DNA of 64,000 bases from assembly GCA_033239005.1 (NCBI GenBank), contig BSQZ01000001.1, forward strand, positions 33,650,688 through 33,714,687, in the 5' to 3' direction. Both the position numbers and the translations under genes were made by a program. This document shows positions 8,707-56,112 of the stretch, piece by piece (position 1 is the stretch's first letter; each line of letters begins with the position of its first letter). The notes beneath the pieces were generated by a model. It ran no database searches, was not told the origin of the DNA, and was given only the letters and a program-made list of their open reading frames with translations. This stretch comes from Lamellibrachia satsuma (Eukaryota > Annelida > Polychaeta > Sabellida > Siboglinidae).

Positions 8707-9110
8707 ATACAAGGTTCGCGCTCTTTTAGTTTTCAGTGATCCAGTGTTTCCTATAATTGTAGATGCTTAGTGGAGAATTCCTTAAATGTTCATTTTGCAT
8801 CTTTGAAAGTATGTTGTCGTCTGATATTGTAGTATATATTGTCTATTTCTGGTGGGAATACTTGTCATTTATTAACATAGCATTTCATATCCGTGATACC
8901 TTGAACACATACAGATCAGACTAAGACTTTTGTATTTGCTTAAACATGGTTTACTTGACAACAAGGTTTGCATCAGTCTCAGCAGTGTAAGCGGCTATCG
9001 ACCGGGGCCTTGTGCTATCAAATACAACACCAGGGATTGATGTAGACAGAAGCCACAGGTGACAAACTGTGCTTTATCTGAGAACAGTAGCGTCACATAT
9101 GTGCACTTAG
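8707..9110. other. No gene seen
   Basis: AT-rich spacer between the hAT element and the 57-bp array. No coding or repeat signal recognised. Confidence 0.5.
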
Positions 9111-9662
9111 CTTCATACAATCTGGAGTCACTGTAGCTACTGACGACCAGTTCTAATACTCCAGTAGCTTCATACAATCTGGAAGTACTGCAGCTACTGA
9201 CGACCAGTTCTAATACTCCAGTAGCTTCATACAATCTGGAAGTACTGCAGCTACTGACGACCAGTTCTAATACTCCAGTAGCTTCATACAATATGGAGGT
9301 ACTGCAGCTACTGACAACCAGTTCTAATACTCCAGTAGCTTCATATAATCTGGAAGTACTGCAGCTACTGACGACCAGTTCTAATACTCCAGTAGCTTCA
9401 TAAAATATGGAGGTACTGCAGCTACTGACGACCAGTTCTAATACTCCAGTAGCTTCATACAATCTGGAAGTACTGCAGCTACTGACGACCAGTTCTAATA
9501 CTCCAGTAGCTTCATACAATCTGGAAGTACTGCAGCTACTGACGACCAGTTCTAATACTCCAGTAGCTTCATACAATCTGGAAGTACTGCAGCTACTGAC
9601 GACCAGTTCTAATACTCCAGTAGCTTCATACAATCTGGAGGTAATGCAGCTACTGACGACCA
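9110..9662. repeat. 57-bp minisatellite array A, about 10 copies
   Basis: The unit contains CTACTGACGACCAGTTCTAA followed by TACTCCAGTAGCTTCATACA. The length is 19 codons, so both strands stay open (minus-strand ELVVSSCSTSRLYEATGVL). The translation is not supported as a gene because it is purely repeat-derived. Confidence 0.97.
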
Positions 9663-10565
9663 GAACTGGAACTGGAAAAATCCGACGTTTATGTAAAATG
9701 CATGATGCGTGCTGTGGAGAATCGGTTTTTTTTCTGGCCACATGTCGACGACATGTGTTGGTATATTGCTGACGATGTCCTCTTTCTATTACCAGAGCCA
9801 GAAAAAGCATGTCCAAATCCGACGTGATCTCTTGGAAATAATTGTGCAATGTGCTTAAGGCATGTCCAAATCCGACATGATCTCTGGGACATAATTGTGC
9901 AATGTGCTTAAGGCTGAGCGGAACCAAGAGACTGGAAACATTTAACATTGTTTTAAAACACAATCATTATGATTATTGTGATCTCTATGATGCAGTGTTA
10001 TGATTCACTCTGGTTGAGGGTCAGTTCTGTTACCAATTATCAAAGAATCAACTCTTACCATCTAAAATTACAATAATTATCCTGAATCTGATAAGTTTTC
10101 GAACTTGTGACTGGCTTAGATCATATGCATTACTTTGTTTATTGCACCAGAGGAGTTGTTAATGTGTTCATGTGGCAATGACATAGCTAATTAGTAACAC
10201 AAAGTATATTGTCGTGAGACGAAAGTAACAGGAACAAGGTGGAAAAGCCAGGTAATTAAAAAACTAAGCTGCATGATAATTACTTATTATGATTAAATGA
10301 TCAGGGACACAGGTACAAGTCACATATAATGTCATAATTCGTCTATGATTAAGTATCATTGTTCTACTGTGTATGGGAATGTCTGTAACAGAGTTGAAAA
10401 AAAATATATAAAATGAATGTTTTAAACTATTTTTATTGTATGCCGATTTGTTTGTAAGTTTGCATATTTCTATGTCTACTCAAGCATGATAGATTGAAAT
10501 AAAAATTTGAAAGAAGTATGCTGATTAAAAAAAAAATATTTTTGGACTTATACCGAATTAGTAGA
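9663..10565. other. Unique spacer between two related 57-bp arrays; 60-bp duplication inside
   Basis: At about 9797-9912 a block GCATGTCCAAATCCGAC...GTGCTTAAGGC occurs twice in tandem. The rest is AT-rich with no gene. Confidence 0.6.
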
Positions 10566-10569
10566 ATGA

Positions 10570-10965
10570 CCCATAATCTGGAGGTACCACAGCTACTGAC
10601 GACCAGTTCTAATACTCCAGTAGCTTCATATAATCTGGAGGTATTGCAGTTACTGACGACCAGTTCTAATACTCCAGTAGCTTCATATAATCTGGAGGTA
10701 CCGCAGCTACTGACGACCAGTTCTAATACTCCAGTAGCTTCATATAATCTGGAGGTACCGCAGCTACTGACGACCAGTCCTAATACTCCAGTAGCTTCAT
10801 ATAATCTGGAGGCACTGCTGCTACTGACGACCAGTTCTAATACTCCCTAACTTCATATAATCTGGAGGCACTGCAGCTACTGATGACCAGTTCTAATACT
10901 CCCTAACTTCATATAATCTGGAGGCACTGCAGCTACTGACGACCAGCTCTAATACTCCAGCTACA
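10570..10965. repeat. 57-bp minisatellite array B, about 7 copies
   Basis: The same family as array A at 9110-9662, with units that differ by GGTACC or GCACTG before CAGCTACTGACGACCAG. Either one array was split by an insertion or the unit was duplicated. Confidence 0.95.
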
Positions 10966-11747: not shown

Positions 11748-11858
11748 TCATAGGTTTGCAGGGGGCACTGTCAAGATGCCAGTTGGTCTCAGTGCGTCTA
11801 TGCCCTTGTGCAGCACACAGACTTTCTGGTAGCCGAGCTGCACCAACGCATTGGCAAA
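11748..11858 (-). CDS. TBCK: TBCK exon 25, C-terminus and stop
   Basis: Encodes [20 protein letters not shown] then [16 protein letters not shown] and a TGA stop at 11750-11748. It matches the human C-terminus (GGINKIKPTGLLTIPSPQI, recalled). The acceptor is TGGTTTCAG. I saw no clear AATAAA in the following few hundred bases. Confidence 0.92.
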   Translation of the reverse strand, partial: FANALVQLGYQKVCVLHKGIDALRPTGILTVPPANL

Positions 11859-14800
11859 CTGAAACCAGACATATTGTAATCACAAAGAAATATTTAATGG
11901 TTAAACAGAAATATATGTAATATAATCCTGTTAATAGCACATAACTCAATGAATGTAATAATTTATTCTCATATTGCAATTATGCAAATATAATGTTTTT
12001 TAATATATACAAAATACACAAAATATAAACAAACAAAATTAGCTGCATCAAAGTAATGTCTAAACAACAACATTTGCTGTTACAACCACTGCCATGCACA
12101 CGCATGCACGCACGCATGCACACAGGGAGAGAGACATACAGACAGACAAAGATACATCTTCCAGTATATTGTGTTGAATTTTGAGGCCACCGTTTTTATT
12201 ATATGATGCCACCCCCATTCAACCCCCGACTGACCTGCATGGTGCACTTGCCTCGACTGCCCACCACAGCCTTCACCTGCACTTTGTGGGAGTTGAGAAT
12301 GTGGACGGAGGGCGAGGGCTGCAACTGTCCGTCAGGGCTGAAGGCATTCTCAAAGGGGATGTTGATGCTGCTCGGAACTGTGCCGCGCATGAAGCTGGGA
12401 GTGGGTTAAGGACAGTGAGATCATAAGTCAAACACAACACAAATGTCAGCATTGGTGAAGGATGTGTAGGTGGAATATGAGAAAGTTCTCATTCTCACAG
12501 AGGACGTTAGGTAAATGAAACAATGGAACAAATTATCTACTGATAATAGCTATCTACTGTAAATAGTCACAGTGTGAACATAATGAGAATAAAATTGAGA
12601 GATATCTGATAAGGGCGAGCTATACATAGATGAACAATTATTGGACTCTTGATAAGCAAATGGCTTCCTTGTCCACTTGCCAGCTTTCTAATAAAAGTAA
12701 CTTCTTAGATAGCTCATTGTCCAGTCCTTAGGACTGTTCAAAGCACTACACACTTCACATCTGTTCACTCTAATGCCAAGTAGACTTCTCTTGGAAGCAT
12801 TCAGCCATGCTGTGTAACTGTGTCCCTCAATGCAATGTGCTGGACAGGGAAATTAGAAAATGAGTGCGCTCAGAGAGGGAGAGAAAGAGGGGGAGGGGGC
12901 GGGAGGGAGGACGATGGAGGGGGAGGGCGAGGGAGGGAGGAAGGGAGAGAACAATTTTATTGTTGACTAGTATCAAACAAAATCCATACACATATAGAAT
13001 GATGTAAGTGTATATAGTATATAGTCAATGGAGACTCTCACTAAGTGTTGTGATGTTACCTTGCCTTGGGAATGAAGCCACGCAAATGTATACAAGATAT
13101 TAGATAAAGAATTAAACTCAGTAACTCAGTGTTGTTTGGTGTTACAGTTGTGTGTTGCTTGATGTTACAGCTGTGTGTTGTTTGGTGTTAGAGCTGTGTG
13201 TTGTTTGGTAGTGGAGCTGTGTTACATGTTCACAACATAACATACTGAATTAAACATTTAGACATATTTTACTGAACATTTAATCTAATTCAAGGTAAGA
13301 ATACAGATAACACAGTAATTTACAACAATCAGCATCCACTGAATCACCATCACATCACCATGGCAACCGGCAGTGTCTCCAAGGATACTCATCATAACTG
13401 CGCACATCGACCACAAGTATGCGTGGCTTTGTGCACCGGGTGCGTTTACTTGGGTTCTGACCATTGGTTGCCCCTAGCAACCCACAGAGGTCAAGCAAGT
13501 CCTCGGCCGAGATGTGCGGACAGACTTCGCTCTTGAGCTCCTCCAGAGGGACGGCGTCCATCGACTGCAACATTTACACATAAAATGCGTGATTATTTTA
13601 TTGTCGTAGCAACACTCTTTGACATAATAGCACAACTTTTATTAACATATCCAACTGTTTAAATGTAGAGACTTTCATCGTCTTTCCAAGAAGGCTTCTT
13701 CAGTACATTTGACTTCCTGGTAGGATGACGTCATCCTACCAGTCTTGGAAAGACGATGAAAGTCTCTACATCTAAACTGTAGGATATGTTAATAAAAATA
13801 AAAACTGTTATTATGAAAATTAACTGAATGAAAAAACACTCTTTGGCATTGAGCAATTTGTGAATGCAGAATCTGATGCTTTTTTTGTAAATTTGTAACT
13901 GTGTAGGGTGAAATTTTTAATTATAAACATATAATGTTCATGTTTATTTTCTCACCAGTTCCGCCTCGCCCAGGTTACTGAGCTGTCTGAGGAAGAGGGT
14001 ATGTTTTCTCACCAGTTCCGCCTCGCCCAGGTTACTGAGCTGTCTGAGGAAGAGGGTATGTTTTCTCACCAGTTCCGCCTCGCCCAGGTTACTGAGCTGT
14101 CGGAGGAAGAGGGTATGTTTTCTCACCAGTTCCGCCTCGCCCAGGTTACTGAGCTGTCTGAGGAAGAGGGTATGTTTTCTCACCAGTTCCGCCTCGCCCA
14201 GGTTACTGAGCTGTCGGAGGAAGAGGGTATGTTTTCTCACCAGTTCCGCCTCGCCCAGGTTACTGAGCTGTCTGAGGAAGAGGGTATGTTTTCTCACCAG
14301 TTCCGCCTCGCCCAGGTTACTGAGCTGTCGGAGGAAGAGGGTATGTTTTCTCACCAGTTCCGCCTCGCCCAGGTTACTGAGCTGTCTGAGGAAGAGGGTA
14401 TGTTTTCTCACCAGTTCCACCTCGCCCAGGTTACTGAGCTGTCTGAGGAAGAGGGTATGTTTTCTCACCAGTTCCGCCTCACCCAGGTTACTGAGCTGTC
14501 TGAGGAAGAGGGTATGTTTTCTCACCAGTTCCGCCTCGCCCAGGTTACTGAGCTGTCGGAGGAAGAGGGTATGTTTTCTCACCAGTTCCGCCTCGCCCAG
14601 GTTACTGAGCTGTCGGAGGAAGAGGGTATGTTTTCTCACCAGTTCCGCCTCGCCCAGGTTACTGAGCTGTCGGAGGAAGAGGGTATGTTTTCTCACCAGT
14701 TCCGCCTCGCCCAGGTTACTGAGCTGTCTGAGGAAGAGGGTATGTTTTCTCACCAGTTCCACCTCGCCCAGGTTACTGAGCTGTCTGAGGAAGAGGGTAT

Positions 14801-17800
14801 GTTTTCTCACCAGTTCCGCCTCACCCAGGTTACTGAGCTGTCTGAGGAAGAGGGTATGTTTTCTCACCAGTTCCGCCTCGCCCAGGTTACTGAGCTGTCG
14901 GAGGAAGAGGGTATGTTCAATGTTGATGTTGCTATCCTTTGTCGTCTTCCTCCTAAGTGTTGGTTTTGCATGCTGTCGATAGGTGGCACTCTTTGGAGTA
15001 CCACAGAAAATTCGGACCGAATCAGAAACACATCGATCGATGGCTATTTCTGCAAAAACAAAAATGTAGACTGTGTGAGTTGTTGGTACAAGGAGGTCTT
15101 ACAAACATAGCAATGTAGAGTGTGAGTTGTTAGGCAAGGAGGTCTTACAAACATAGTAATGTAGAGTATGAGTTGTTGGTGCAAGGAGGTCTTACAAACA
15201 TAGCAATGTAGAGTGTGAGTTGTTGATGCAAGGTCTTACAAACATAGCAATGTAGAGTGTGAGTTGTTGGTACAAGGAGGTCTTACAAACATAGCAATGT
15301 AGAGTGTGAGTTGTTAGGCAAGGAGGTCTTACAAACATAACAATGTAGAGTGTGAGTTGTTGGTGCAAGGAGGTCTTACAAACACATCAATGTAGAGTGT
15401 GAGTTGGTAGTGCAAGGAGTTCTTACAAACACATCAATGTAGACTGTGTAGTTGTTGGTGCAAGGAGTTCTTACAAACATAGCAATGTAGAGTGTGAGTT
15501 GTTGGTACAAGGAGGTCTTACAAACACATCAATGTAGAGTGTGAGTTGGTAGTGCAAGGAGTTCTTACAAACACATCAATGTAGACCGTGTAGTTGTTGG
15601 TGCAAGGAGTTCTTACAAACACAGCAATGTAGACTGTGTAGTTGTTGGTGCAAGGAGTTCTTACAAACATAGCAATGTAGAGTGTGAGTTGTTGGTGCAA
15701 GGATGTCTTACAAACACATCAATGTAGAGTGTGAGTTGTCGGTGCAAGGAGGTCTTACAAACACATTAATGTAGAGTGTGAGTTGCCGGTGCAAGGAGGT
15801 CTTACAAACACATCAATGTATACCATGTAGTTGTTGGTGCAAACTGTTGGAAGTGATACATTATACTATAAACTAGAGAAACCAGTGTCTTTGGGATTGA
15901 ATGTGGAGTGATGCGTTACATTTGGTGCTCTTCCACCTGCCCTGTCACAGTAAAATCAACAACATTTACCGATTTCCAAATAGTTTTATGAAAAATTATT
16001 CAAAAGTGCAGTATTTTTCAGTCAGAAACAGATGGCTGTTCATTTACAAATATTACAGTAATAATAAAGTTTTTTTTTCTAAAAATATTACAGTAATAAT
16101 AAGGTAATAAATCACAAAAAGAAATTCCAGAACACATAATAAAAAAACTGCCTTACCTGGCATATCTGAGAAGAGTAATATGCACTCATTGAACCCGTAT
16201 GAGAGAAGTTGGTCCCGCAGTTGCTGCAGGATGGCGACACCGATGCAGAGTGGGAATGAACTGCCACCAAGTAACAATGTGTCCCAGAGGTGGAAGATCT
16301 TGTGTAGAGGGAAGACGTCTGGGAAACAACAAAGTGTAGAGTGAGTGGGAACATGTCTGGGAGACAACAAGGTACGGAGTGAGTGGGAACACGTCTGGGA
16401 GACAACAAGGTATGGAATGAGTGGAAACATGTCTGGGAGACAAGGTACGGAATGAGAGGGAACACATCTGGGAGACAACAAGGTACAGAATGAGTGGGAA
16501 CACGTCTGGGAGACAAGGTACGGAGTGAGTGGGAACACATCTGGGAGATGACAGGGTACAGAGTGAGTGGGAACATGTCTGGGTGACAACAAAGTACGGG
16601 GTGAGTGGGAACATGTCTGTGAGGCAACAAGGTACAGAGTGAGTTGAAAGTCTTTTATGTTTATTATTTTCTTGCTGCGGCTTTTGTCTTAATGCTTTAG
16701 TATAGCTAAATAGTTTTAATTTATCTGTCGTACATTTTTATGTTTGTGATGTGTTGTCATAACATAAGATCTAACAAATAACATTGACCAGACAAATGTA
16801 CACAATGACTCAATGGGGTAGATTATAGCTAACTTAAATGTGTTAAGTTATAGCTAAGTTACACAAGTACATCGTGTGTGAAGTCATAGATAGCTTACAT
16901 AAGTTACACAAGTACATAGTGTGTTAAGTCACAGCTAACTTACACAAGTACACTGTGTGTTAAGTCACAGCTAACTAACACAAGTACATTGTGTGTTAAG
17001 TCATAGATAGCTTACATAAGTACATAGTGTGTTAAGTCATACCTAACTTACGCAAGTAAATAGTGTGTTAAGTCAGAGCTAACTTACATCAGTACATAGT
17101 GTGTTCAGTCATAGCTAACTTACATAAGTACATAACTGGTCATGTCATAACTAGTTTACATGAGTACATAGTGTGTTAAGTCATAGCTAACTTACACAAG
17201 TACATTGTGTGTTAAGTCATATATAGCTTACATAAGTACATAGTGTGCTAAGTCATAGTTAACTTAAACAAGTACATTGTGTATTAAGTCATAGCTAACT
17301 TACATAAGTATATAGTGTGTTAAGTAAAATATAGCTTACATAAGTACATAGTGTATTAAGTCATAGCTAGCTTACGTAAGTACATAATTGGTCATGTCAT
17401 AACTAGCATACATAAATACATAGTGTATTAAGTCAAAGATAGCTTAAACAAGTACACAGAGTGTTAAGTCATAGCTAACTTACATCAGTACATTGTGTGT
17501 TGTCATAGCTAACTTACATAAGTACATAACTGGTCATGTCATAACTAGCTTACATAAGTACATAGTGTGTTATGTCACAGATAGCTTACACGAGTACATA
17601 ATGTGCTTATGTAGCTGGCTGTTCCTATCTATGCTTGTTTTGAATTGAGTAGTTTCAATAAAAGTTTTTAAAATAAACCAACCATTTCTTCACAAATTGT
17701 AGTTGAAATACTAAATAATACTCTAGATTAATAATTTCATGATTTAAATTTTTTTTTGTAATATAAAAAATACCCACAAAATGCCATATAATTTGGAGAA

Positions 17801-20800
17801 AACACCCAAACAAATAAATGACATACATGTAAGAATGACAGGGTCCCTGATGATCCCACAAGTCACCTTGGTTAACATGAACGAATTACAGCTGTTACAG
17901 GGCCAGGACGATTTTAGCAGAAATTTGAATGACAGCCCAAACTCACACTCACACAAAGCCTTCATTAATCCTAGTGCATGGAAAGTTGCATACATGTAAG
18001 ACACATTAAATTCACACCCCAAATTGTAGCTTTGTAAGACTTGTAGTTTTTATAAAATGTTTAATTAGGTAATGTTTCCTGGTTGTTAGTAATAACAAAA
18101 ATGTCGTTAGATATGTGTATCATGCTTGAAATGTGACGTTTTTCACTGACGTTTTACGAATTGTTGACAAAACATAAAGGCTATTTCAAATATTGACATG
18201 TCCACTTTAATTTTACTGCCACAAAAACTCTGGAACTTGCATTTGTAACATATTGTTGTCTATCAAGAGCCCAGTATTGGGGCACATGGTCAGTTGTTTA
18301 CACATGCATAAGATCGTTTGATTTACCTGTTATCAGACAAGAGTGACCAGTTCACAGCAACTGGTGGGTTCTGTTCGGCATCAATGACAATTAACTTGAT
18401 ATGATGATATGGTCCTAGTGAATAAATTTGTGCTGGTTCGAAGTGTGCCCTGACTCGAAACACGTGGTTGTTATTATGGAAACATTGTCAGCATTTCCAA
18501 GAAGTCAGGGGGATTTCCAAAAGGACTATTTTTTAAAGGATGGATTGGCGAAATATGACGTTACTGCCGGGTGATTATTTGTGGTGTCAATGTTCAGTTC
18601 CATTATATAACTTCCATATTTCCTAGCATGCTATGAGGAAAAAATTAAACAAACAACAGACATGTTAGCCGCCCCAGCTGCCTTAAGTCATAGCTAGCTT
18701 ACATAAATGCATAACGTGTTAAGTCAGAGTAAACTTAAATGAATAGATAATGAGTCATGTGACAGTAAACTTACGGGCGTACATTGTGAGAAACCAGGGA
18801 ATGGCATAAAGCTGAAAACAAGAAACGAGAAATAATCACGTCACCAACAAAACATATCAGGACATGCGAACATTCCTGAACACATTTTCATCAAATTTGC
18901 TAGAAAGGTTTTATCATACTGACAAATCCATAATCTGATTTTAATGTATATATGAACAACTATGTTCTTACCTTCGGTGACAGACTACACTGCCATCTAG
19001 TTATCAGTTGTGAAGGCATCTTCGGTTTAATGATGGACAGTCATTTAACCATGGACACATACAATGGAAATCTCTACTTTTAATTCAGGATAGCTTCCTT
19101 ACTCAACACATGCTAGAATCAACCAGGGGAGATAATGTGTTAGATATAGTTTTGTCTTCACAAAATAAATTACTGGACAATGTCAAAATATATGAACCAT
19201 TGGGTAACAGTGATCATAATCAAATACATTTTGACATCAAAAAAAGATCACAAAGTAAAAATAAAAAAATACAGGAGAAACTTCCACAAAGGTAAATATA
19301 AAGATTTGAGAAAATACTTAGCAAAGCTGCATTGGAATAACATGCTGAGGAATAAGACAGCTACTGAATGATGGAACATTCTAAAATATGAAATTCAGAG
19401 TATCATTGAAAGATGCCTTCCCTTGAAAAAAGGGAAAAGGGTCTAAAAAGAAACAATTGTCAAAAGGAGCTATTAGAAAAGGATGAAAACTACACAAATT
19501 ACAAAGAGGCTCTTAATGCAGCTACAACTGAAATTAGACAAGCGAAAAGAAGGTATGAGCAAAAATGAGCACATGACATAAAAAAGACAGCAAGAGTTTT
19601 TATGCATATGTCAAGAATAAACAAAGCCTACGAGACAAGGTTGGACCACTAAAAGACATTGCGGGAAATATAATATCACAAGGTTATTAATTCATTACCA
19701 GTTCCAGAACTTGGATGTAAACTATACAATGGGAGATACTATTCTAGGTACTTCTCTAACAGAAAAGGACACAGGAGTAACAATAAGTGCTGATATGAAA
19801 GTTTCAGAACAGTTTGGTATTGTAGCTTCAAAGGTAATAAAATTCTTGGGTTGATTAGGAGAAATATAACATACAAGGAAAAAGAGCTAAATATACCTGT
19901 GTATAAAGTTCGGCCTCATTTAGAATACTGTATACAAGCTTGGAGACCATATCGTAAGAAGGATATAGATACACTTGAAAGAATACAGAGGAGAGCAGCT
20001 AAAATTATTCCAGAACTGAGAGACCATAGTTATGAAGAACATCTAAAAGAATATGGTTTAACAACCCTGACAAGGAGGTTAAGAGGAGATCAAATTGAAG
20101 TTTTTAAGATATTGGATGGGTATGAAAATATTGATAGAAATATTTTTTTCTCACACAAGAAAGATAGTAGAACGAGAGGATATGAGGTAACATTAGTAAA
20201 GGATCAGTGTGGATTGGATATCAGGAAGTACTCGTTCTCAGAGGACAATAAATGAATGGAACAAATTATCTACAGATTGTGTAATTGCTAGCAGTGTGAA
20301 TATGTTTAAAAACAAGGATGACACATCTCTATACACATAGATGAAAACATTGTGGACTCTAGATAAGCCATCTAGGCCTTTGCCTTGGATAGCATTTTTT
20401 TAACAAGATTTAACAAGATTGCCATCCCAAACAACAAGTTCCAGATGGCAAGTGGCCAAAGAAGCCATTGGCTTATCGAGAGTCCAACAATTTTATCATC
20501 TATGTGTAGCCCGCCCTTATCAGATATCTGTCAATTCTATTTTTGAACATATTCACACTACTAGCATTAACACAATCATTTGGCAGTTTGTTCCATTCAT
20601 TTATCACCCTCTGTGAGAAAGAGTACTTTCTCATGTCCAACCTACACTGCTCCTTAACTAATGCTGCTTTGTGTCCTCTGGTTCTACTGCCTTCTTTAAG
20701 TTTGAAGAACATATTCCTATCAACATCCTCATAACCGTTCACTATTTTAAACACTTCTATTTGGTCTCTTCTTAGTCTCCTGGTCTCTAGTGTTGTCAAA

Positions 20801-23800
20801 CCAGGTTGTAATAAGCGGGTTTCGTAACTAAGGTCTCTCAATTCTGGAATCATTTTACTTGCTCTTCATTATATTCTTTCTAGCTTGTCTATGTCCTTTT
20901 TACGATACGGCTTCCATGCTTGAATACAATATTCCAAATGTGGTCTAACTATTGTTTTGTACAGGGGTGCAATTAGCTGTTTCTCCTTATACATGATAGT
21001 TATCCTAATTAGCCCTAGAATTTGATTTCCTTTCCAAGCAGCAATCCCACATTGCTCTGAAACTTTCATGTCAGCACTAAATGTTAAAAGTCCTTTTCTT
21101 GAGTGGTTCTACCTAGTACAGCATCCTCCATTTTATATTCTTCGTCCATGTTTCCATGTCCTATGTGTATGCATTTACACTTCCCAAAATTGTATAACAT
21201 TTGCCATTTTTCCGACCATTTAACTAATTTATCTACATCATCCTGTAAACTTTGTTTATCTGTATCATTAGTAACCCTTCTGAATACTTTTGTGTCATCT
21301 GCAAATTTCAGTACTTTGCTGGATATGTCATCTTCCAAATCATTTATATACATTAAAAACAGTATAGGGCCTAATACTGATCCCTGTGGTACCCTGCTCA
21401 AAACAGATTTCCATTTTGAAATCTCACCATCTACTATTACTCTCTGTCTTCTGTGTGTAAGCCACTTTTCTATACAGTTGATTACATCATTACCTATACC
21501 ATGGGCTTTTAGTTTGTTTAAGTAAAAATTTTTGATGTGGTACTTTATCGAAAGCTTTCTGAAAATCTAAGTAGACAACATCCACTGGTGACCCATCATC
21601 TACCCACTTTGTAATTTCTTCAAAAAAACAAGAGATTGGTTAGACATGACCTACTTTTAGGAACCCATGTTGAGATGTATTTATTAATTTATGTTTTACA
21701 AGGAAATCCACCATGTGGTCTCTAATTAATGTTTCGAGTAATTTACATACAACTGATGTTAAACTCACTGGTCTGTAATTTTCTGGTGGTACCCTTCTGT
21801 TTGTGAGCAAGTTTTCTAATAGCCTCTTTAGACAGGTGTTTCTTCCTGGACATGCCCCCAATTTCATATTTTAAACAAGTCCAGCATTCTGTTGCTGTCT
21901 TGTTCTTCAGCATGTTATTCCAATCTGTATTTGCTAGATATGTTCTCATCTCTTTATATTTACTTTTGTTTAAGTTCCTCCTCCATTGTTTTTTATATGC
22001 AGTCCCTGTTTTTACTTTTATATTAAAATGGATCTGATTATTGTCACTTGAACCTAAAGGTTCGTGAACTTTAACATTGTCAACTAATTCAGTTTTAGAA
22101 GACAAAATTCAATCTAACAAATTCCCACCTCTGGTTGGTTCCAAGACATGTTGAGTAAGGAAACAATCCTGTGTTAGAAGTAGAAACTGATGGTCGTCAC
22201 CTCCAGCACACTCTAATGATTCCCATTGTATATGGCCATGGTTAAAATCACCCATTATAACACATTCCCCTTGCTCACCTCCCTTATAGCCTTTTGTAAT
22301 TTTACATCTTCCTCTTGTCCTATGTTAGGACTGCGATAAACTACTCCTATTGTTAATGTCGAGTTCCTAGTAACTATGTTACACCAAATTGCTTCTTCAC
22401 AATCTGCTCCACTTTTCAGTGTTATTTCAAATGCTTGGATAGATTCTTTAATATATAAATTTACTCCACCTCCCCTTCTTTCTCGTCTATCCTTCCTAAA
22501 CATTACATAGCCTATCAGTGCTAACTCAGCATCTCCTATATCTTTATTTGCCCATGATTCTGTGATACCTATTACATGAGGGTCAATATCTGGTACCATA
22601 ATGTCTAATAATGTCTTAATATTTGAATATAATATTTTTAACAGACACAAATTTTTAAAAACATGTGTTTCTATAATCCTAAAAGTTAAACAATACTACA
22701 AATAATACTGCTGATTTTTGCAACCATTACTGAGAAACATTTAGAAAATCGTGGCCATTCATCAAATACATCCAGTCTCATAAACCTGGTCAACTCTGTA
22801 CAAAGTACATAATATAATAAGTATTTCAATCCAGAATACTTGTGTATATAAGTATATAGGTAATTTGAATTAATGTGTACACCTACTTCAAATTAAAAAT
22901 CTGTGGGAGCATTTAATCATTAAACTTCTTGCTAGAAATTACCTGTGCATATTTAAGAGTTACTCACATCAGGAATGAATCCGATCTCGTTCATGTGAAC
23001 ACTCAACTCCGGGTCGTGAAAAGCGATCAAATGTGAAAATACTGATAAATACTCTGAAACAAATTACCTTTTTTTAACTTTTTTATTTTAAATGCTTGTC
23101 TGGAAATAATAACTAAAGATTTATGTAAAGAATAGGGCGGGTTTGGGGGAGGGGTGGAGAAGAAGAGCGAGGGATGAGGGAGTGGAGATCAGTGACAGGA
23201 GAGTGGAGATCAGTGATGGGAGAGTGGAGATCATTGATGAGGGAGTGGAGATCAGTGAACGGAGGGTGGAGATCAGTGATGGGAGAGTGGAGATCATTGA
23301 TGGGAGAGTGGAGATCAGTGATGGGAGAGTGGAGATCTGTGATGGGAGAGTGGAGATCAGTGATGGGAGAGTGGAGATCAGTGATGGGAGAGTGGAGATC
23401 AGTGATGGGAGAGTGGAGATAAGTGATGAGAGAGTGGATATCAGTGATGGGAGAGTGGAGATCAGTGATGGGAGAGTGGAGATCAGTGATGGGAGAGTGG
23501 AGATCAGTGATGAGAGTGGAGATCAGTGATGGGAGAGTGGAGATCAGTGATGGTAGAGTGGAGATCAGTGATGGGAGAGTGGAGATCAGTGATGGTAGAG
23601 TGGAGATCAGTGATGGGAGAGTGTAGATCAGTGATGGGAGATTGGAGATCAGTGATGGAAGAGTGGAGATCAGTGATGGGAGAGTGGAGATCAGTGATGG
23701 GAGAGTGGAGATCAGTGATGGGAGAGTGGAGATCAGTGATGGGAGAGTGGAGATAAGTGATGGGAGAGTGGAGATCAGTGATGGGAGAGTGGAGATCAGT

Positions 23801-26800
23801 GATGGGAGAGTGGAGATCAGTGATGGGAGTGGAGATCAGTGATGGAGAGTGGAGATCAGTGATGGGAGAGTGGAGATCAGTGATGGGAGAGTGGAGAACA
23901 GTGATGGGAGAGTGGAGATCAGTGATGGGAGTGGAGATCAGTGATGAGAGAGTGGAGATAAGTGATGGGAGAGTGGAGATCAGTGATGGGAGAGTGGAGA
24001 ACAGTGATGGGAGAGTGGAGATCAGTGATGGGAGTGGAGATCAGTGATGGGAGAGTGGAGATCAGTGATGGGAGAGTGGAGATCAGTGATGGGAGAGTGG
24101 AGATCAGTGATGGGAGAGTGGAGATCAGTGATGGGAGAGTGGAGATCAGTGATGGGAGAGTGGAGATCAGTGATGGGAGAGTGGAGATCAGTGATGGGAG
24201 AGTGGAGATCAGTGATGGTAGAGTGGAGATCAGTGATGGGAGAGTGGAGATCAGTGATGGGAGATTGGAGATCAGTGATGGAAGAGTGGAGATCAGTGAT
24301 GGGAGAGTGGAGATCAGTGATGGGAGAGTGGAGATCAGTGATGGGAGAGCGGAGATCAGTGATGGGAGAGTAGAGATTAGTGATGGGAGAGTGGAGATCA
24401 GTGATGGGAGAGTGGAGATCAGTGATGGGAGAGCGGAGATCAGTGATGGGAGAATGGAGATCAGTGATGAGAGAGTGGAGATCAGTGATGGGAGAGTGGA
24501 GATCAGTGATGGGAGAGTGGAGAACAGTGATGGAAGAGTGGAGATCAGTGATGGGAGAGTGGAGATAAGTGATGAGAGAGTGGAGATAAGTGATGGGAGA
24601 GTGGAGATCAGTGATGGGAGAGTGGAGAACAGTGATGGGAGAGTGGAGATCAGTGATGGGAGTGGAGATCAGTGATGGTAGAGTGGAGATCAGTGACGGG
24701 AGAGTGGAGATCAGTGACGGGAGAGTGGAGATCAGTGATGGGACAGTGGAGATCAGTGATGGGACAGTGGAGACCCGTGATGGGAGAGTGGAGATCAGTG
24801 ATGGGAGAGTGGAGATCAGTGATGGGAGAGTGGAGATCAGTGACGGGAGAGTGGAGATCAGTGACGGGAGAGTGGAGATCAGTGAAGGGAGAGTGGAGAT
24901 CAGTGATGGGAGAGTGGAGATCAGTGATGGGAGAGTGGAGATCAGTGATGGGAGAGTGGAGATCAGTGATGGGACAGTGGAGACCCGTGATGGGAGAGTG
25001 GAGATCAGTGATGGGAGAGTGGAGATCAGTGATGGGAGAGTGGAGATCAGTGATGGGAGAGTGGAGATCAGTGATGGGAGAGTGGAGATCAGTGATGGGA
25101 GAGTGGAGATCAGTGATGGGAGAGTGGAGATCAGTGATGGGAGAGTGGAGATCAGTGATGGGAGATTGGAGATCAGTGAAGGGAGAGTGGAGATCAGTGA
25201 TGGGAGAGTGGAGATCAGTGATGGAAGAGTGGAGATCAGTGATGGGAGAAGGAAAGCAAAAGGATCAGTGTCGCTGCCAGCCTCATTTCAGACTTCGTCG
25301 ACAAAGAGGATAAGGCAACAACAACAACAATTTATTTAAAGCATATGAATTCTGTTTCCCTGACAACCATCACATACTTTCATAACTGTATGTATATTAA
25401 TATTATTAAAAGATGCTGCTACATACAAGAAACCCTGAAACAAAGTTCCCCAAAACATGTCTCTGCTAATTCTACTGATGCTGTTAATATTTATAAGCAC
25501 TATTCCTCAGTGATAATGCGTGATGGTAGGAACGATCATTGGCAATAACGAGATGCTCCGCACTGACCTTGAATCACAGCGGAGTTGTCTTTGAGGAAGA
25601 ACTTGTGAAGATACTTTGGGATGAAGGCCACGAGGCACGCAAACGCCACAGCTGAAGTGTCACACAAACATACTCTCAAGCTGTCATATGGATGTGGAAA
25701 GACTCTACATTATGACATGACTATATGCATGACAACATGTCATTCTCTCTTGCAACGTTTCCACATGCCTGTACTTAACTACCTGTACTTTACTATACTC
25801 TCCTTAAATCTTTTATGAAAATCTTACCACAGAAGTTAATATGTGCAATATGTGAGTCTGCATAGACTACACAAGCATGTGCACTATGTGAGTCTGCATA
25901 GACTACACAAGCATGTGCACTATGTGAGTCTGCAGACTGCACAAGCATGTGCACTATGTGAGTCTGCATAGACTACACAAGCATGTGCACTATGTGAGTC
26001 TGCATAGACTGCACAAGCATGTGCACTATGTGAGTCTGCATAGACTGCACAAGCATGTGCACTATGTGAGTCTGCATAGACTGCACAAGCATGTGCACTA
26101 TGAGAGTCTGCATAGACTGCACAAGCATGTGCACTATGTGAGTCTGCATAGACTGCACAAGCATGTGCACTATGTGAGTCTGCATAGACTGCACAAGCAT
26201 GTGCACTATGTGAGTCTGCATAGACTACACAAGCATGTGCACTATGAGAGTCTGCATAGACTGCACAAGCATGTGCACTATGTGAGTCTGCATAGACTGC
26301 ACAAGCATGTGCACTATGTGAGTCTGCATAGACTACACAAGCATGTGCACTATGTGAGTCTGCATAGACTACACAAGCATGTGCACTATGTGAGTCTGCA
26401 TAGACTGCACAAGCATGTGCACTATGTGAGTCTGCATAGACTGCACAAGCATGTGCACTATGTGAGTCTGCATAGACTACACAAGCATGTGCACTATGAG
26501 AGTCTGCATAGACTGCACAAGCATGTCTCTGATAGAGCAACTCACCTGAAAATATTCAAAATGTGACCTAGAGAATGTGACTAGTTCAGACTGACGCTGA
26601 TGAAGGAACCAAGAAGTCTTAAAAGCTCTGTCGAGCTAATACTTGAGACTTCAAATTGATAACGGTGTTGATAACTATAAAGTATTGATCAGAAGCATGA
26701 GCCTGTTACCTTCATCATTGAAGTTGAGATAGAGAAAGGGGGCACACAGAGAGTCGAGGCCCTGCCAGTAGACGTACTGGGGGTGACTTGCCACCCACGC

Positions 26801-29800
26801 CTTGAGAAGACGCTTCAACTTTGTGTGACCCATCGGGGATGACAGCAACTCACAGTACTGGTGACAGCGCGGCACGTCAACTTCTATCTGGCACACACAA
26901 GGTCACATAAGGTCATACAAAGTCACACAATGTCACACTTGTTGCCGATCAACAGGATGTTCCAAGTTGTTGGAATCATAGAGGGGCACTATGATTACCA
27001 TGGGTAGAAATAACTTCAAACTCTACCTAGGTAGTTAGCCACACTACAAGGAGACAGGGAAATAATCCTTTACATGTCACAGGTTACACTGCTGAATCAA
27101 AACCACCCAGTAAGTTGTAATGATAGTCCTGCTGCCAGTGAGAGGTCTAGCTACAACATCAGGTTACACTACTGAATCAAAACCACCCAGTAAGTTGTAA
27201 TAATAGTCCTGTTGCCAGTGAGAGGTCTAGCTACAACATCAGGTTACACTATTGAATCAAAACCACCCAGTAAGTTGTAATGATAGTTCTGTTGCCAGTG
27301 AGAGGTCTAGCTACAACATCAGGTTACACTACTGAATCAAAACCACCCAGTAAGTTGTAATGATAGTTCTGTTGCCAGTGAGGTTACACTACTTGAGTCT
27401 TGATAAGACAGCAGCTGCACTGACTATTGTTTGTTGCTGTTGTTTGTTGAGTCTGTTTCTCCCAATCACAACAGCTTCACTATCATCATGATTTCTTCTA
27501 TTATTATTGTTGCTGTAACTTATTTAGTTTTCTTTCTCTGGAGTTGGTGAGTCAATGACAGGTTACATATCTTCCCCCTGTGTGGGATCTTTTACTTCCC
27601 CTGGCATAGACACCAAACAGAAGGGACCAACGACTTTTACTGTCTCTTCCAAAAGACACAGGCAACGTGGGGTGAACAAAATTACCCAAGTCTCGAAACA
27701 GCAGCAGATACTGCGCCACACTAATCATGAACAATGACGTGTGTAGCAGAAGGACTCACGTGTCTGTCTGAATGGAACTCACCTGTCTGTCTGAATGGAA
27801 CTCACCTGTCTGTCTGAATGGAACTCACCTGTCTGTCTAAACGGAACTCACCTGTCTGTCTGAATGGAACTCACCTGTCTGTCTGAATGGAACTCACCTG
27901 TCTGTCTGTGGGTGTGGGTGTCTCTTTATCCACAGCATTATATTGGCCATACACATCACCCTGTAAACATTAATACACATCTGACACTTTCAATGCCTTC
28001 TGTGACATCATAAAACACTTTCATCACTTATACGTCATGTGCATCAAGCACTTCTATCATCAAGTACTTCTATCATCAAGTACTTCTATCATCAAGCACT
28101 TCTATCATCAAGTATTTCCATCTAAAGCAAAAACAAAACTTTCCATTATTTACTGCACATAAAATGTTGGTGTTGTTAAACTTGTTTCCTAAACACTACT
28201 GTTTTCAATATTGACATACTATAATACTTGAGCAAATACCCTCTGCAATGCTCTGTATTACTTAGCTATATACCGGGTACTCTTAACTTCCAGTTTCTGG
28301 GATGTAGTCATTATCAGAAATTGTATAAGTTTTGTATAACATAATACTTGGCACAACTTATACATTTCGTGGTTGTTTTCATAATCAGAAATATTATAAG
28401 TTTTTTATTATATGTAATGTCCAACATCCAAAAAATAGTTCGTTTAGTGAGAGTCCACTGTGACCTTCATTATGACCTTCAGTCATACCTCCACTTCCAG
28501 CAGGGCTGCCCAGACCTTTGCCCTGACCAGGGGTGGGATGTCTACCCTGGCCTCCTTCCAGATGTGGGCGCGCTTGTAGGGGTACGCCGTGATCAGACGG
28601 GCATAGAGGATAAGGCGGTGGAACTGGGCCAGGTCAACAGGTCAATGGTCAATCCAGCACTCAATAAGTAAATTTTCGTTAAAAAGTTAACATTGATGTC
28701 ACATAGCAAGTCACATAACATTGGTGTCACATAACAAGTCACATAACATTTGTGTCACATAACATTGGTGTCACAAAACAAGTCACATAACATTGGTATC
28801 ACATAACAAGTCACATAACATTGGTGTCACATAACAAGTCACATAACATTGGTGTCACATAACAAGTCACATAACATTGGTGTCACATAACAAGTCACAT
28901 AACATTGGTGTCACATAACAAGTCACATAACATTGGTGTCACATAACAAGTCACATAACATTAGTGTTACATAACAAGTCACATAATATTGGTGTCACAT
29001 AACAAGTCACATAACATTAGTGTTACATAACAAGTCACATAACATTGGTGTCACATAACAAGTCACATAACATTGGTGTCACATAACAAGTCACATAACA
29101 TTGGTGTCACATAACAAGTCACATAACATAACAAGTCACATAACATAACAAGTCACATAACATTGGTGTCACATAACAAGTCACATAACATTGGTGTCAT
29201 CCGTTCCATATGATTTTGGTAAAGTAACATTTGGAGCAACCAAAGTAATTTTTTATGTGTATAAACTTATAGGCAAAAACCAAGTTCATTTCACTAACTT
29301 AGATTACCAGGTAACTGCCGTTCAAGCAAAGGTGCAGGTCAAGTAACTATGTCTAAAGCATTGGATCCATATGGGGTCAAGGATCCCTATGGGGTCAAGG
29401 ATCCCTATGGGGTCAAGGATCCCTATGGGGTCAAGGATCCATATGAGGTCAACGTTCAACGTCACGATGTGTTAACCTCCCCAAAATGTTATTAACAGGT
29501 AGAAATGAGAAAAACTGTTGGACTCTCGATAAGCCAGTGGCTTCCACTGCCTTGGATGGTAATCTTGCTCAATCTTGCTAAACTATTCCTGGTAGGCCAA
29601 CTTTCTACTTCACACACATTTTTTATTAATTGTTATACACTGTTCAATATACATGTCTATGGTAATTCACCTGTTTATAATGTTACCACCTGACCTTAGT
29701 TGCCTTAACAGAAAATATACAAATTGCCTTAACAAGATCTGCTATGACAGGCATAAAGCATCAATAATGATACATCACTAAAACAAATTCTCTGATCCAT

Positions 29801-32800
29801 TGGTAACCATCCATACCTGATATTCAACGTCTTTCTCCCTGATTACCAAGGGTAGCTTTGTGGTATCTGACAGGTCAACACTGCTAGGTGAGGTGGGTAA
29901 TTCCTTGTTTCCATGGTTACAGTGTCTGGGTAAACAAAAGACATTGTATCACTAAGCAGACTAGACAGTATCAGGGATACACAAACAATGTACGTAACAT
30001 TTCTATAATATAATAAACACCTCAGCTTGCAAAGTACAGTCAAACCTCGCTTTAAGGTCACCTTAGTAATACAACCACCTCACCATTATAGTCACTGGCC
30101 CCATTCCGAGGGTGGCCTGAATAGTGAGGTTCCACAGCATACTGTGTGTCATTCCAAATGTCAGAATAAAATAAATAGTTATCTTTATAGAATATTACAA
30201 CTCAAATAAAGTCCATCTTTGTTTGTGAAAACATTTTATTGACATGTGTACTTGGAGAGTTATGAAAGTTTACATAAGAAGGCAATGTTAGTAGACAGAG
30301 AAGGCAATGTTAGTAGACAGAGAAGGCAATGTTAGTAGACGGAGAAGGCAACGTTAGTAGACAGAGAAGGCAATGTTAGTAGACGGAGAAGGCAACGTTA
30401 GTAGATGGAGAAGGCAATGTTAGTAGACGGAGAAGGCAATGTTAGTAGATGGAGAAGGCAATGTTAGTAGATGGAGAAGGCAATGTTAGTAGATGGAGAA
30501 GGCAAAGTTAGTAGACGGAGAAGGCAATGTTAGTAGATGGAGAAGGCAATGTTAGTAGATGGAGAAGGCAATGTTAGTAGACGGAGAAGGCAACGTTAGT
30601 AGACGGAGAAGGCAATGTTAGTAGACGGAGAAGGCAATGTTAGTAGACGGAGAAGGCAATGTTAGTAGATGGAGAAGGCAATGTTAGTAGATGGAGAAGG
30701 CAATTTTAGTAGATGGAAAAGCCACTGTTAGTAATATGATAATGATTTTATTGTCTTCACACATGATATGTAGCATATATCAATGAAGACAATGGAAAGG
30801 AAGCAATATAGCTTATAATTCCTTGTTTAAATAATTCATTAATACACAGTGCACTGTGCAGTAGTGCATAACTGTTAGAACAAGTGCAGTGTAACAACAT
30901 TGAAGTACACTAGGACATCTCCATATGTATAACATTTGATGATATACATCATTCACAAGTTGACAGTTATACTACTACTAAATAGAGAAGCCACTGTTAG
31001 TAGACAGAGAAGGCAACGTTAGTAGATGGAGAAGGCAATGTTAGTAGATGGAGAAAGAAGGCAATGTTAGTAGATGGAGAAGGCTATGTTAATAGATGGA
31101 GATAGAAGTGGACATACTCATCCTCAAGGAGAATGTAATAGGCTGTCTCATCCAAGTTCTGTAGTCTCTGGAAAGAACATGAGTAACATTAGAACATACA
31201 CTCTAAGTACTAATGTATCCAGTCAGCAGGGATGGGTTGACGCTTTATCACCAGAAGCAGTGTCACCATTTAGTGCAAGTGTGAAACCTAAAGCTAACTC
31301 TGTGCCACATAAGCGAGTCTGCAGAATGTGGAGAGTAGAAAAGAAAGAGAACGTAAGTAATTTACAACCAGAGAGTCTTCTATGTAGATCATCATCATAT
31401 TCTGGTTAAAAATCCATAGTGTAAAAACAATATCCACATTTTGGTAATTTCCGCAGAAACATGCCAAATGTATGGAGGTTACAGACAATTACTCTGACCC
31501 AGGAGATCTAAGTCTTATTGAAATGAATCCCAATTCTGTAACAACCTCCTCCCCCTCCCCTCCTTCCTCCTCCCCCTTCCTCTCCCCCTCCCTCCTTCCT
31601 CCCTCCTTCCTCATAGACCTACCTGTCTGAGACAATCGAGGGACAACGTGACAGTGACGTCATCAAGCAGGACAGATCTGTCTCGCTTCTCTCCAAACAT
31701 CTCTCCTTCTTGGAGTACATAACTAAAACACAAGAACACTTCTCTCCAAACATCTCTCCCTCTTGGAGCACATAACTAAAACACAAGAACACTTCTCTCC
31801 ATACATATCTCCCTCTTGGAGCACATAACTAAAACACAAGAACACTTCTCTCTAAACATCTCTTCCTCTTGGAGCACATAACTAAAACACAAGAACACTT
31901 CTCTCCAAACATCTCTCCCTCTTGAAGCACATAACTAAAACACAAGAACACTTCTCTCCAAACATCTCTCCCTCTTAGAGCACATAACTAAAACACAAGA
32001 ACACTTCTCTCCAAACATCTCTCTCTCTTGGAGCACATCATTAAAACACAAGAACACTTCTCTCCAAACATATCTCCCTCTTGGAGCACATAACTGAAAC
32101 ACAAGAACAGTTCTCCCCATACGCCTCTCCATCTTGGAGCACATAACTGAAACACGAAAACACTTCTCTCCAAACATATCTCCCTTTTGGAGCACGTAAT
32201 TAAAACACAAGAACATTTCTCGACGAACATCTCTCCCTCTTGGAGCACATAATTAAAACACAAGAACACTTCAGTGGAAGCTGAACAGGAATAATACAAT
32301 AGTCATCTTCCTAAATGATTTTGTAAACTGTAACAACATCCAATACAGCAGTTAAACAATCTGCAAAATGAAATGTTGACTTTTATTAATGCATTCGGAA
32401 AATGGCCCTACTGGACAATGGACATACCGAACCCAGACATTAAAAATATTCTTCATGAATCACGAATTAGCAAGATTGATTTAAAACGAATGTCACCCAA
32501 ACCAAAACACCCAGATGGCAAGTGGACAAGGAAAGCACTGGCTAATTAAGAGTCCAACAATTCTTTATTGACGTGTAACCCACCCCTCTGAGACATTTGT
32601 CAATTTTTTTTTAACATATTCACATTGCTAGCATTTACACAATCAGTGGATAACTTGTTCCAATAAGAGGATAGCTTTGAACAACCATGTACTATGATAG
32701 ACAAGTGAGGTTGATGATGGGAAGCTTGGAGGGGATGAGAAATGGGTCTTCACTTTGTGAGGTTGGTGACGGGATGGTGGGGATGAGCAATGGGTCTTTA

Positions 32801-35800
32801 CTTTGTGAGGTTGATGATGGGATGGTAGGGATGAACAATGGGTCCTCACTTGGTAAAGTTGATGATAGGATGGTGGGGATGAGCAATGGGTCTCACCTGG
32901 TGAGGCTAAGGATGGGATAGTGGGGATGAGCAATGGGTCTCACCTGGTCAGGTTAATGATGGGATGGTGGGGATGCACAATGGGTCTGACCTAGTGAGGT
33001 TAATGATGTGATGATAAGCAATGGGTCTGACCTGGTGAGGTTGATGAGGGGATGGTGGGGATGAGCAATGGGTTTCACTGGGTGAGGTTGATGATGGGAT
33101 GGTGAACAATGGGTCTGACCTGGTTAGGTTGATGATGGGATGGTGGGGATGAGCAATGGGTTTCACTGGGTGAGGTTGATTGTGGGATGGTAGGGATTAG
33201 CAATCTGGGTAAGGTTGAGATTGTGGGGATGAGCAAAGGGTCTCACCTGGTGAGGTTGATGATGGGATGGTAGGGATGAGCAATGGTTATCACCTGATGA
33301 GGTTGATGATGGGAGGTTTGGTGGGGATGAGCAATGGGTCTCACCTGGTGAGGTTGATGATGGGATGGTGGGGATGAGCAATGGGTTTCACTGGGTGAGG
33401 TTGATGATAGGATGGTGAGCAATGGGTCTCACCTGATGAGGTTGATGATGGGATGGTGGGGATGAGCAATGGGTTTCACTGGGTGAGGTTGATGACAGGA
33501 TGGTGAGCAATGGGTCTCACCTGGTGAGGTTGATGATGGGATGATGGGGATGAGCAATGGGTTTCACCTGGTGAGGTTGATTATGGGATGGTGGGGATGA
33601 GCAATGGGTCTCACCTGGTGAGGTTGATGATGGGAGGTTTGGTGGGGATGAGCAATGGGACTCACCTGGTAAGGTTGATGATGGGAGGTTTCGTGGGGAT
33701 GAGTCCCTCCCTCCTGAGGGTTGTCTCCAGGTCTCCTCCGGTCAGCTGCCACAGGTAGTACACCTCATTGATTCCTCTCTCTCCCAACAGATCCACAGGC
33801 ATTTCTTCTGGGCAGAAACATAAAAACACCATTTTATGGTATCATAAATACAATATATATTTCCTAAATCCTCAACCTCAGAAGTGCATCACAGAAAACA
33901 CTGGGGGCAATCTCAATAGATGATAATAAAAATAATTATATTTTAGCACTGTTGTATTTTAAGCGCCTTTATATTCCCGAGACATAGCTGAGCCACGTCA
34001 TCGACGTCTCTGTTGCGACTCATGTGGTTGAGAGATGGAGACCACAGTAGGTTACACATTTACGCACATGTGGGATTTTTTACTTCCCCTGGCATAGACA
34101 CCAGGTAGAAGGGCCCTCAAATAAGTCATGCACTCCTACAACTAAGTTAATGAGGCCCGACTAAAGCTGCTAATGACTATGGTTATTATCTTGGTGTGAT
34201 ACCCCTGCTGTGCCAACTGTGAATGTTTTTGAAAAAAGAACAACTTAGTTAATTAGACTGACAACTGGCATAAATGCTTAGCATTGTGATGCAGCCCCTT
34301 CCCAGAATACCTCTGTCATCCCTCACACTCGCCAGTTCAAGGTCAGCACATCTCAGCCTCACAGAGAACATGTCGTAGCCAATGGACGGCGGAATCTGTC
34401 AAAAGAACAAAAACAGACGTCATCTCCATATTGGAGAAAAAACATTCTAAAAACCTTGTAATAATTTTGTAATAAAATGATAATAAATGATAACTTCACA
34501 TACTTAATGTTGCACTTTATACACAGTCAGGTGTATAATTAATAAATCTTTGAAAAGTTGTGCTGCAGAGATAGGTTTTAAACATTTACCTTGCACCTCT
34601 TGAAATCCCTGAATAATGAAGAACTCAATAGTTCTGTTGGGTTCTTTCTAAAAAAGAAGACATGTTTTGCTGAAAAAATAATCTGCCTTAATTGAGTATT
34701 TACTCTGGTTAGACATGATCCCACAACACTAGAGTTATAAAATGAGTGGTATAAACTCTGCACTGGGAAAAACTATTTATGCACTTTTTCCTTTTACATG
34801 GCACACTGTTACAATGTATATGTCTATTAGCTATTAGTTTATAAAATATTAATGATGTTACATTCATTTTAATGGAAGTTCTCTTGGTCCCCTCCTCTGT
34901 GTTAGTGTGAGCTGTTCTCTGGAGTCACACAATCACCGAGGAAGGGACCGAGAGGGTTCGAAAAGATCCGTTGAGCACTTACTGGACACTCTACGGTGTC
35001 ACACTATCACTGAGGAAGGGACCGAGAGGGTTCGAAAAGATCCGTTGAGCACTTACTGGACACTCTACGGTGTCACACTATCACTGAGGAAGGGACCGAG
35101 AGGGTTCGAAAAGATCCGTTGAGCACTTACTGGACACTCTACGGTGTCACACTATCACTGAGGAAGGGACCGAGAGGGTTCGAAAAGATCCATTGAGCAC
35201 TTACTGGACACTCTACGGTGTTACACTATCACTGAGGAAGGGACCGAGAGGGTTCCAAAAGATCCATTGAGCACTTACTGGACACTCTACGGTGTCACAC
35301 TATCACTGAGGAAGGGACCGAGAGGGTTCCAAAAGATCCATTGAGCACTTACTGGACACTCTACGGTGTCACACTATCACTGAGGAAGGGACCAAGAGGG
35401 TTCGAAAAGATCCATTGAGCACTTACTGGACACTCTACGGTGTCACATTATCACTGAGGAAGGGACCGAGAGGGTTCCAAAAGATCCGTTGAGCACTTAC
35501 TGGACACTCTACGGTGTCACACTATCACTGATGAAGGGACCGAGAGGGTTCCAAAAGATCCTTTGAGCACTTACTGGACACTCTACGGTGTCACACTTAC
35601 ACTGAGGAAGGGACCGAGAGGGTTCCAAAAGATCCGTTGGGCACTTACTGGACACTCTACGGTGTCACACTTACACTGAGGAAGGGGCCGAGAGTTCCAA
35701 AAGATCCGTTGAGCACTTACTGGACACTCTACGGTGTCACACTATCACTGAGGAAGGGACCGAGAGGGTTCCAAAAGATCCGTTGGGCACTTACTGGACA

Positions 35801-55977: not shown

Positions 55978-56009
55978 AGCCAAGTAGACTGACAGACCAT
56001 CAGGGGACC

Positions 56010-56112
56010 ATGGCTTCAGTGGTCCTTCAGCGCATCCAACAACGAGCTACACAGGCGGACCAGGTCCTCAAACAACTCAAGGCTCAACTTTGGACCCTCA
56101 AACAAAATGCCA
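56010..56112 (+). CDS. AIMP1: AIMP1 exon 1 (coding), residues 1-34
   Basis: Encodes [20 protein letters not shown] and following residues, a heptad-repeat start comparable to human AIMP1 (QKGAEADQIIEYLKQQV). ATG sits in ACCATGG. The donor is GTATGT. Probable 5' UTR covers 55978-56009. Confidence 0.85.

Follow-up and report, generated by a model that had tools for sequence, protein, structure and literature searches.

Minisatellites that lie across exon/intron boundaries have been described in amphioxus as 'mirages' in Adh3, globin, and other genes, for which reverse transcription-polymerase chain reaction (RT-PCR) suggested regular splicing (PMC3087553). In the lancelet gene PGBD5, repeats of 60 and 108 bp are found at splice sites, and the annotation had made an extra exon of the repeat residues (PMC3902484). 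Human genes in segmental duplications carry internal tandem repeats at exon-intron boundaries, with on average four units of 30 bp (PMC2812944), and the earthworm metallothionein gene contains intronic minisatellites, none of them at splice sites in the portion of the text covered (PMC12783039); all four papers are cited from parts of their texts. By title and abstract, no boundary-spanning array was found in a lophotrochozoan, a weak negative given that the literature was mostly open-access and that few of the queries were specific to lophotrochozoans or annelids. Here, we describe a 57-bp minisatellite that straddles the donor of exon 22 of a TBCK gene, together with other arrays at splice sites of the same gene, in a 64,000-nt stretch of contig BSQZ01000001.1 (the window). 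We consider it quite probable that the exon 22 array is a boundary-spanning minisatellite that is removed with the intron via the first donor, leaving an ordinary TBCK of 905 residues.

For the gene model, TBCK proteins of Capitella teleta (P0003), Sinanodonta woodiana (P0004), and Lineus longissimus (P0021) were placed on the minus strand by spliced alignment with scored splice sites, and the coding sequence (CDS) was then checked.

11751..51415, minus strand: TBCK coding span of 25 exons and 24 introns, with a 905-codon CDS without internal stop (spliced alignment and CDS check)
14868..15049, minus strand: TBCK exon 22 with its first donor, 182 nt, identical in all three spliced-alignment runs

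The alignments with the Capitella and Sinanodonta proteins gave identical 25-exon models running from 51415 to 11751. The Lineus-based model deviated at the start, the last residue, the acceptor of exon 3, and the donor of exon 10, and contained one small exon more, following exon 13. The CDS comprised 2715 nt with no stop in 905 codons and all 24 introns were GT-AG; the intact CDS suggests that the gene is functional. A preliminary description of this DNA had named the gene as TBCK and the exon as its 22nd, and indeed the same exon was recovered in the three spliced alignments, where it was the 22nd of 25 exons in two cases. With the first donor, it is the longest internal exon of TBCK, the median lengths being 100 nt for exons and 1034 nt for introns. 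Matches to Pfam RabGAP-TBC, Rhodanese, and Pkinase were obtained with a rougher exon assembly made by eye. Among the best 120 of 1056 matches in a protein search, TBCK showed identities of 61% to Solemya velum, 60% to Capitella teleta, and 57% to Branchiostoma floridae, and judging from this similarity the host looks like a lophotrochozoan.

Two arrays lie at exon 22, one at each end.

13947..14917, minus strand: 57-bp minisatellite with 17 identical donors, straddling the donor of exon 22 and lying within the exon for 50 nt
15063..15842, minus strand: 47-bp minisatellite abutting the polypyrimidine tract and acceptor of exon 22, with a gap of 13 nt

For the former, Tandem Repeats Finder reported a period of 57, 17.0 copies, and 98% matches. 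On the minus strand, CTGGTGAGAAAA occurred 17 times at an exact spacing of 57 bp, its GT lying at 14867 in the first occurrence and at 13955 in the last, and each of the 17 units carried the donor CTG/GTGAGAAAA (the slash marks the splice site). The unit consists of 48 nt of exon 22 and 9 nt of intron 22 (GTGAGAAAA), and, as in the amphioxus mirages, the array covers the exon/intron boundary; here the splice signal is present in all 17 units. The final copy leads into GTGAGAAAATAAACATG; there GTGAGAAAA runs into TAAACATGAAC, and consequently a stop codon stands directly after the last VRK. The minus-strand TBCK frame was open from before 15049 down to 13947. When the CDS was read for each donor in turn, it contained 905, 924 and so on up to 1209 codons, and remained open and in frame with exon 23 in all 17 cases, that is, also with all 16 alternative donors. 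With a unit of 57 bp, a multiple of three, and a frame that is open across the 17 copies, the array is as expected of a coding variable number of tandem repeats (VNTR); no other of the six units that straddle splice sites in TBCK is divisible by three. At 971 nt, the array is not the longest donor array, that of exon 11 being 998 nt. In intron 22, an inverted repeat with arms of approximately 40 nt around a short palindrome was seen by eye at 13660-13780, which may be a small inverted-repeat element.

These results bear out much of the preliminary description, which had reported 17 copies of a 57-bp repeat each with its own donor, a frame open through the whole array, proteins of exactly 905 to 1209 residues from any of the donors, and a repeat amplified from the 3' end of the exon plus its donor. 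Two of its details needed correction. The end of the exon itself forms the first of the 17 units, the full unit of 19 residues hence being repeated 16 times, and the peptide said to be identical in each copy is so in most of them, copies 3 and 9 having GEVEL for GEAEL. Three sites vary among the copies. The variants of copies 2-4 recur in the same order at copies 8-10, a hint in the sequence of unequal exchange. Furthermore, the exonic copy is identical to copies 5, 6, 7, 11, 13, and 15, which together with the shared variants points to repeated exchange in which the exonic copy takes part.

Tandem Repeats Finder returned 93 overlapping array rows in the window. Arrays covered 15,917 of the 39,665 nt of the TBCK span but 163 of its 2,715 exonic nt. 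Six of the 48 TBCK splice sites were straddled, namely the donors of exons 1, 11, 16, and 22 and the acceptors of exons 12 and 21; under stricter repeat calling, which sets aside the 32-bp row of exon 1, the number was 5 of 48. Besides that of exon 22, the straddling units measured 16, 23, 38, 47, and 53 bp. They copy the splice site itself, and donors and acceptors are both affected, as is the case for mirages.

16309..16649, minus strand: minisatellite of 38/35 bp straddling the acceptor of exon 21, with nine scored acceptors CAG/A with pyrimidine tract
27754..27908, minus strand: 23-bp minisatellite straddling the donor of exon 16, with six identical CAG/GTGAGT and one CAC/GTGAGT
31686..32272, minus strand: 53-bp minisatellite straddling the acceptor of exon 12, with eight scored acceptors
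32705..33702, minus strand: 47-bp minisatellite straddling the donor of exon 11, with 13 scored donor-like sites
51156..51238, minus strand: short array at the donor of exon 1, with GTCAGTGTCTG three times; its 32-bp row enters the exon by 16 nt

The acceptors in the exon 12 array were six TTTTAG/TT and two TTTCAG/TT. At exon 1, the 16-bp row (51162-51222) begins at the first intron base, and the straddling therefore depends on the 32-bp row. Six further sites had an array edge within 15 nt: the donors of exons 5, 12, and 13 and the acceptors of exons 6, 17, and 22, the last of which was given above.

26894..26938, minus strand: 10-bp array abutting the acceptor of exon 17, gap 6 nt
30985..31108, minus strand: 22-bp array abutting the donor of exon 13, gap 9 nt
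31545..31612, minus strand: short pyrimidine/purine-rich array abutting the donor of exon 12, gap 10 nt
38549..38737, minus strand: 30-bp array abutting the acceptor of exon 6, gap 11 nt
45773..46130, minus strand: 42-bp array beginning 2 nt into intron 5, after the donor of exon 5, with copies that lack the GT of the donor

Subsequently, each splice site was swapped for the other copies of its array and the resulting CDS was read; this frame test omitted the exon 1 array and the weak exon 11 donor at 32849, which had been scored. The units of the arrays at exons 11, 12, 16, and 21 are not multiples of three. All 11 alternative donors of exon 11 led to a stop at codon 363 and all six of exon 16 to a stop at codon 523, and a stop was likewise met with all seven alternative acceptors of exon 12 and with six of the eight of exon 21. 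Premature stops thus arose at 30 of the 32 alternative sites in these four arrays, indicating that the exon-proximal copy must be chosen in practice, if TBCK is functional. The intact frame was obtained with exon-proximal sites throughout the gene, which speaks indirectly for regular splicing. A functional gene accordingly requires that the splicing machinery pick the upstream-most donor in some arrays and the downstream-most acceptor in others.

Whether array edges gather at splice sites beyond chance was examined with arrays placed at random. Overlapping rows of Tandem Repeats Finder had been merged by us, first into 34 entries and then into 31 arrays, taking the longer 32-bp row as the limits at exon 1 and the limit 33702 at exon 11 from a smaller overlapping row. 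When arrays were placed outside exons, the number of sites no more than 15 nt from an array edge averaged 1.1 and never exceeded 7 in 3000 trials, as compared with the 12 observed. A more permissive null, in which 30 arrays (that at 11712-11752 being left out) could enter exons by up to 50 nt without swallowing them, gave a mean of 4.1, and 12 or more sites were reached with P = 0.0005 (4000 trials). These results indicate that array edges gather at TBCK splice sites, granted that exons are protected by selection; an excess of straddling itself is not proven.

We infer the following course of events at exon 22. A tandem duplication across the boundary of exon 22 and intron 22 would have founded the minisatellite, and, because the outermost copy could still be spliced as before and the mRNA would be unchanged, the duplication would have been tolerated. 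The extra copies, being intronic, would then have been free to expand, and further exchange could have brought them to 17. The spliceosome would use the exon-proximal donor between 14868 and 14867 by exon definition, in which a short exon is recognized through pairing of its donor with the acceptor close by, and the ordinary 905-residue TBCK would be the product. Short exons separated by long introns are the layout in which exon definition is usual. At exons 12 and 21, where acceptors are repeated, the same rule would select the last acceptor; pairing across short exons would hence explain the choice of both donors and acceptors, whereas a first-come rule would explain that of donors only. The unit of 57 bp is divisible by three and its nine intron bases contain no stop; a wrong donor choice at exon 22 would therefore leave the frame intact, and longer isoforms at a low level are possible there.

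Several observations weigh against removal of the array with the intron, or against the pattern on which this reading draws. Two of the eight alternative acceptors of exon 21 left the frame open, giving 943 and 979 codons. Under the permissive null, the straddled sites taken alone were not in excess (6 versus a mean of 3.1, P = 0.07). A null without any protection of exons gave a mean of 19.3 sites as compared with the 12 observed, which speaks against simple enrichment; we judged this null unsuitable since it swallows whole exons. In the AIMP1-like neighbour described below, the six exon pieces recognized by eye lay at least 82 nt from any listed array, so that the association of arrays with boundaries is not universal. 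Among the large donor arrays, that of exon 22 was the most uniform: it had 98% matches, the exon 16 array 96%, and the exon 11 array 74-80%. Synonymous changes account for two of the three variable sites in the exon 22 array, an excess that is not significant (chance P = 0.14). Finally, no transcript or protein of the species itself was found in three protein searches, which covered one match, the best 120 of 1056 matches, and the best 120 of 182 matches, respectively. The best match to exon 22 was P0001 (66%), and that to the full query was P0122 at 62%, among the best 120 of 182. Partial matches reached at most 65% where about three quarters of the query was covered (best 120 of 1056) and at most 89% where coverage was a fifth to two fifths (best 120 of 182). 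A scan of viral contigs returned no relative.

Of the alternatives, the one that survives best is compatible with removal of the array: the first donor dominates and a small share of transcripts comes from later donors. We regard such leaky splicing as possible, although somewhat unlikely. The donors are identical and the outcome at exon 22 is in frame, and in human genes of segmental duplications most intron changes made by boundary repeats (66%) also have transcripts with the repeat in the exon, according to the part of PMC2812944 cited; on the other hand, RT-PCR in amphioxus suggested that boundary repeats leave splicing undisturbed, as stated in the part of PMC3087553 cited.

It is improbable, in our estimation, that the array is a coding VNTR, in which several donors of exon 22 are used to give TBCK isoforms with 1 to 16 extra units of 19 residues between the TBC and rhodanese domains. 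The preliminary description had proposed such a VNTR with the repeat number set by donor choice, and the 17 identical, in-frame donors are what it would call for. An open in-frame array is, however, not rare. The chance that a unit is a multiple of three is one in three, and the nine intronic bases of the exon 22 unit hold no stop, as is also true of the first nine or so intron nucleotides at 19 of the 24 TBCK donors, a stop being met at the other five. Of the 22 arrays checked, 12 apart from that of exon 22 had a period that is a multiple of three, and at least one frame was open in 8 of these. The open frame was rejected as evidence of coding, the exon 22 array being open in three of six frames. 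The unit was predicted to be mostly helix with very low confidence, and a single-sequence fold of the read-through exon 22 (364 residues) gave a mean predicted local distance difference test (pLDDT) score of 42.7 and a predicted template modelling (pTM) score of 0.19, likewise of very low confidence. A solenoid or another folded repeat domain built from these units is unsupported by this model.

The homologues also argue against the coding VNTR. The linker between the domains, taken as the stretch from SATYR to ISAEDL, was measured in 108 of 241 fetched proteins, one motif being missing from the other 133; the proteins came from capped best-match lists clustered at 90% identity, with several isoforms for some species. 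With the first donor, the linker has 53 residues, within the range of 30-56 in the 108 other TBCK proteins, none of which exceeded 56, and one more unit via the second donor would raise it to 72, above all of them. In P0001, a predicted protein of 68 residues from a JGI source, the equivalent of exon 22 (66% identity) ends in NEVKL-VRK without a repeat. It seems from its sequence to be a single copy with the donor GTGAGAAAA followed by a stop, and it could instead end at a contig edge. The comparison with relatives, which the preliminary description had suggested, thus turned out unfavourable to its proposal, as did the demand for the exon-proximal site at the other TBCK arrays. It is equally doubtful that exon 22 is a coding exon of variable length, with several of the 17 donors in use, one allele giving a ladder of TBCK proteins in steps of 19 residues and the other arrays being held to one site by decay of the wrong products. 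Unproven as it is, the protein-length reading appears less likely than intronic removal.

An assembly artefact, in which the copy number or the array itself results from misassembly, is highly improbable: assemblers struggle with long, uniform tandem arrays, but the three variable sites follow a structured order, similar arrays with other units stand at other TBCK splice sites, and the CDS with its 24 GT-AG introns is intact.

The window holds several other features. In TBCK intron 5, one 42-bp minisatellite unit forms three arrays, at 40209-40607, 45255-45444, and 45773-46130, which flank a long retrotransposon-like frame on both sides; either an insertion into a single array or a dispersal of the unit may account for this. 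That frame is one of two recognized by eye as resembling retrotransposons without long terminal repeats, as listed below with the remaining features.

42578..45154, plus strand: non-LTR retrotransposon-like frame of 858 aa in TBCK intron 5
20503..22695, minus strand: non-LTR retrotransposon-like frame in broken pieces in TBCK intron 19
9108..9663 and 10573..10960, downstream of TBCK: arrays of a common 57-bp unit that is unrelated to the exon 22 unit
55950..62840, plus strand: AIMP1-like gene, head to head with TBCK, with coiled-coil and EMAP-II/tRNA-binding pieces recognized by eye

TBCK and AIMP1 are neighbours in vertebrates as well, and their linkage may be old.

If the anatomy holds in sequencing reads, the TBCK arrays are natural contests of identical or similar splice sites, at donors and acceptors, with nearly always one choice that makes the protein; in a single intact gene, the right site seemingly has to be picked reliably from as many as 17 identical donors and nine similar acceptors. 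The way in which the correct copy is selected becomes directly testable, be it by pairing across the exon, by the order of transcription, or by decay of wrong products. Where the unit is a multiple of three, such arrays may offer a route of stepwise exon growth. Caution is also in order, since gene predictors can turn boundary arrays into false repeat domains.

Arrays of this kind are already known, and the broader pattern across TBCK is a stronger finding than exon 22 alone. Like TBCK, the human duplicated genes have minisatellites at exon-intron boundaries, which are sometimes kept in the exon; there, alternative retention is supported by transcripts, whereas TBCK is known here from genomic sequence alone (PMC2812944, part of the text). 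PGBD5 shares with TBCK the coincidence of tandem repeats with splice sites and differs in its lancelet host and in its copies, which are imperfect and number two to seven according to the assembly (PMC3902484, part of the text). The closest likeness in detail is that to the amphioxus mirages, as far as the cited part of PMC3087553 describes them. TBCK differs from these in its lophotrochozoan-like host, in having five or six straddled sites in one gene, in one array that is a multiple of three and open throughout, and in that its splicing is predicted from the DNA. In both, the units consist of an exon end plus the splice site, donors and acceptors are hit, and many units keep the signal, and the unit sizes overlap with the 10-72 bp of the Adh3 mirages. 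Within the literature searched, the TBCK arrays extend the phenomenon from lancelets, with the looser human parallel, to an apparent lophotrochozoan.

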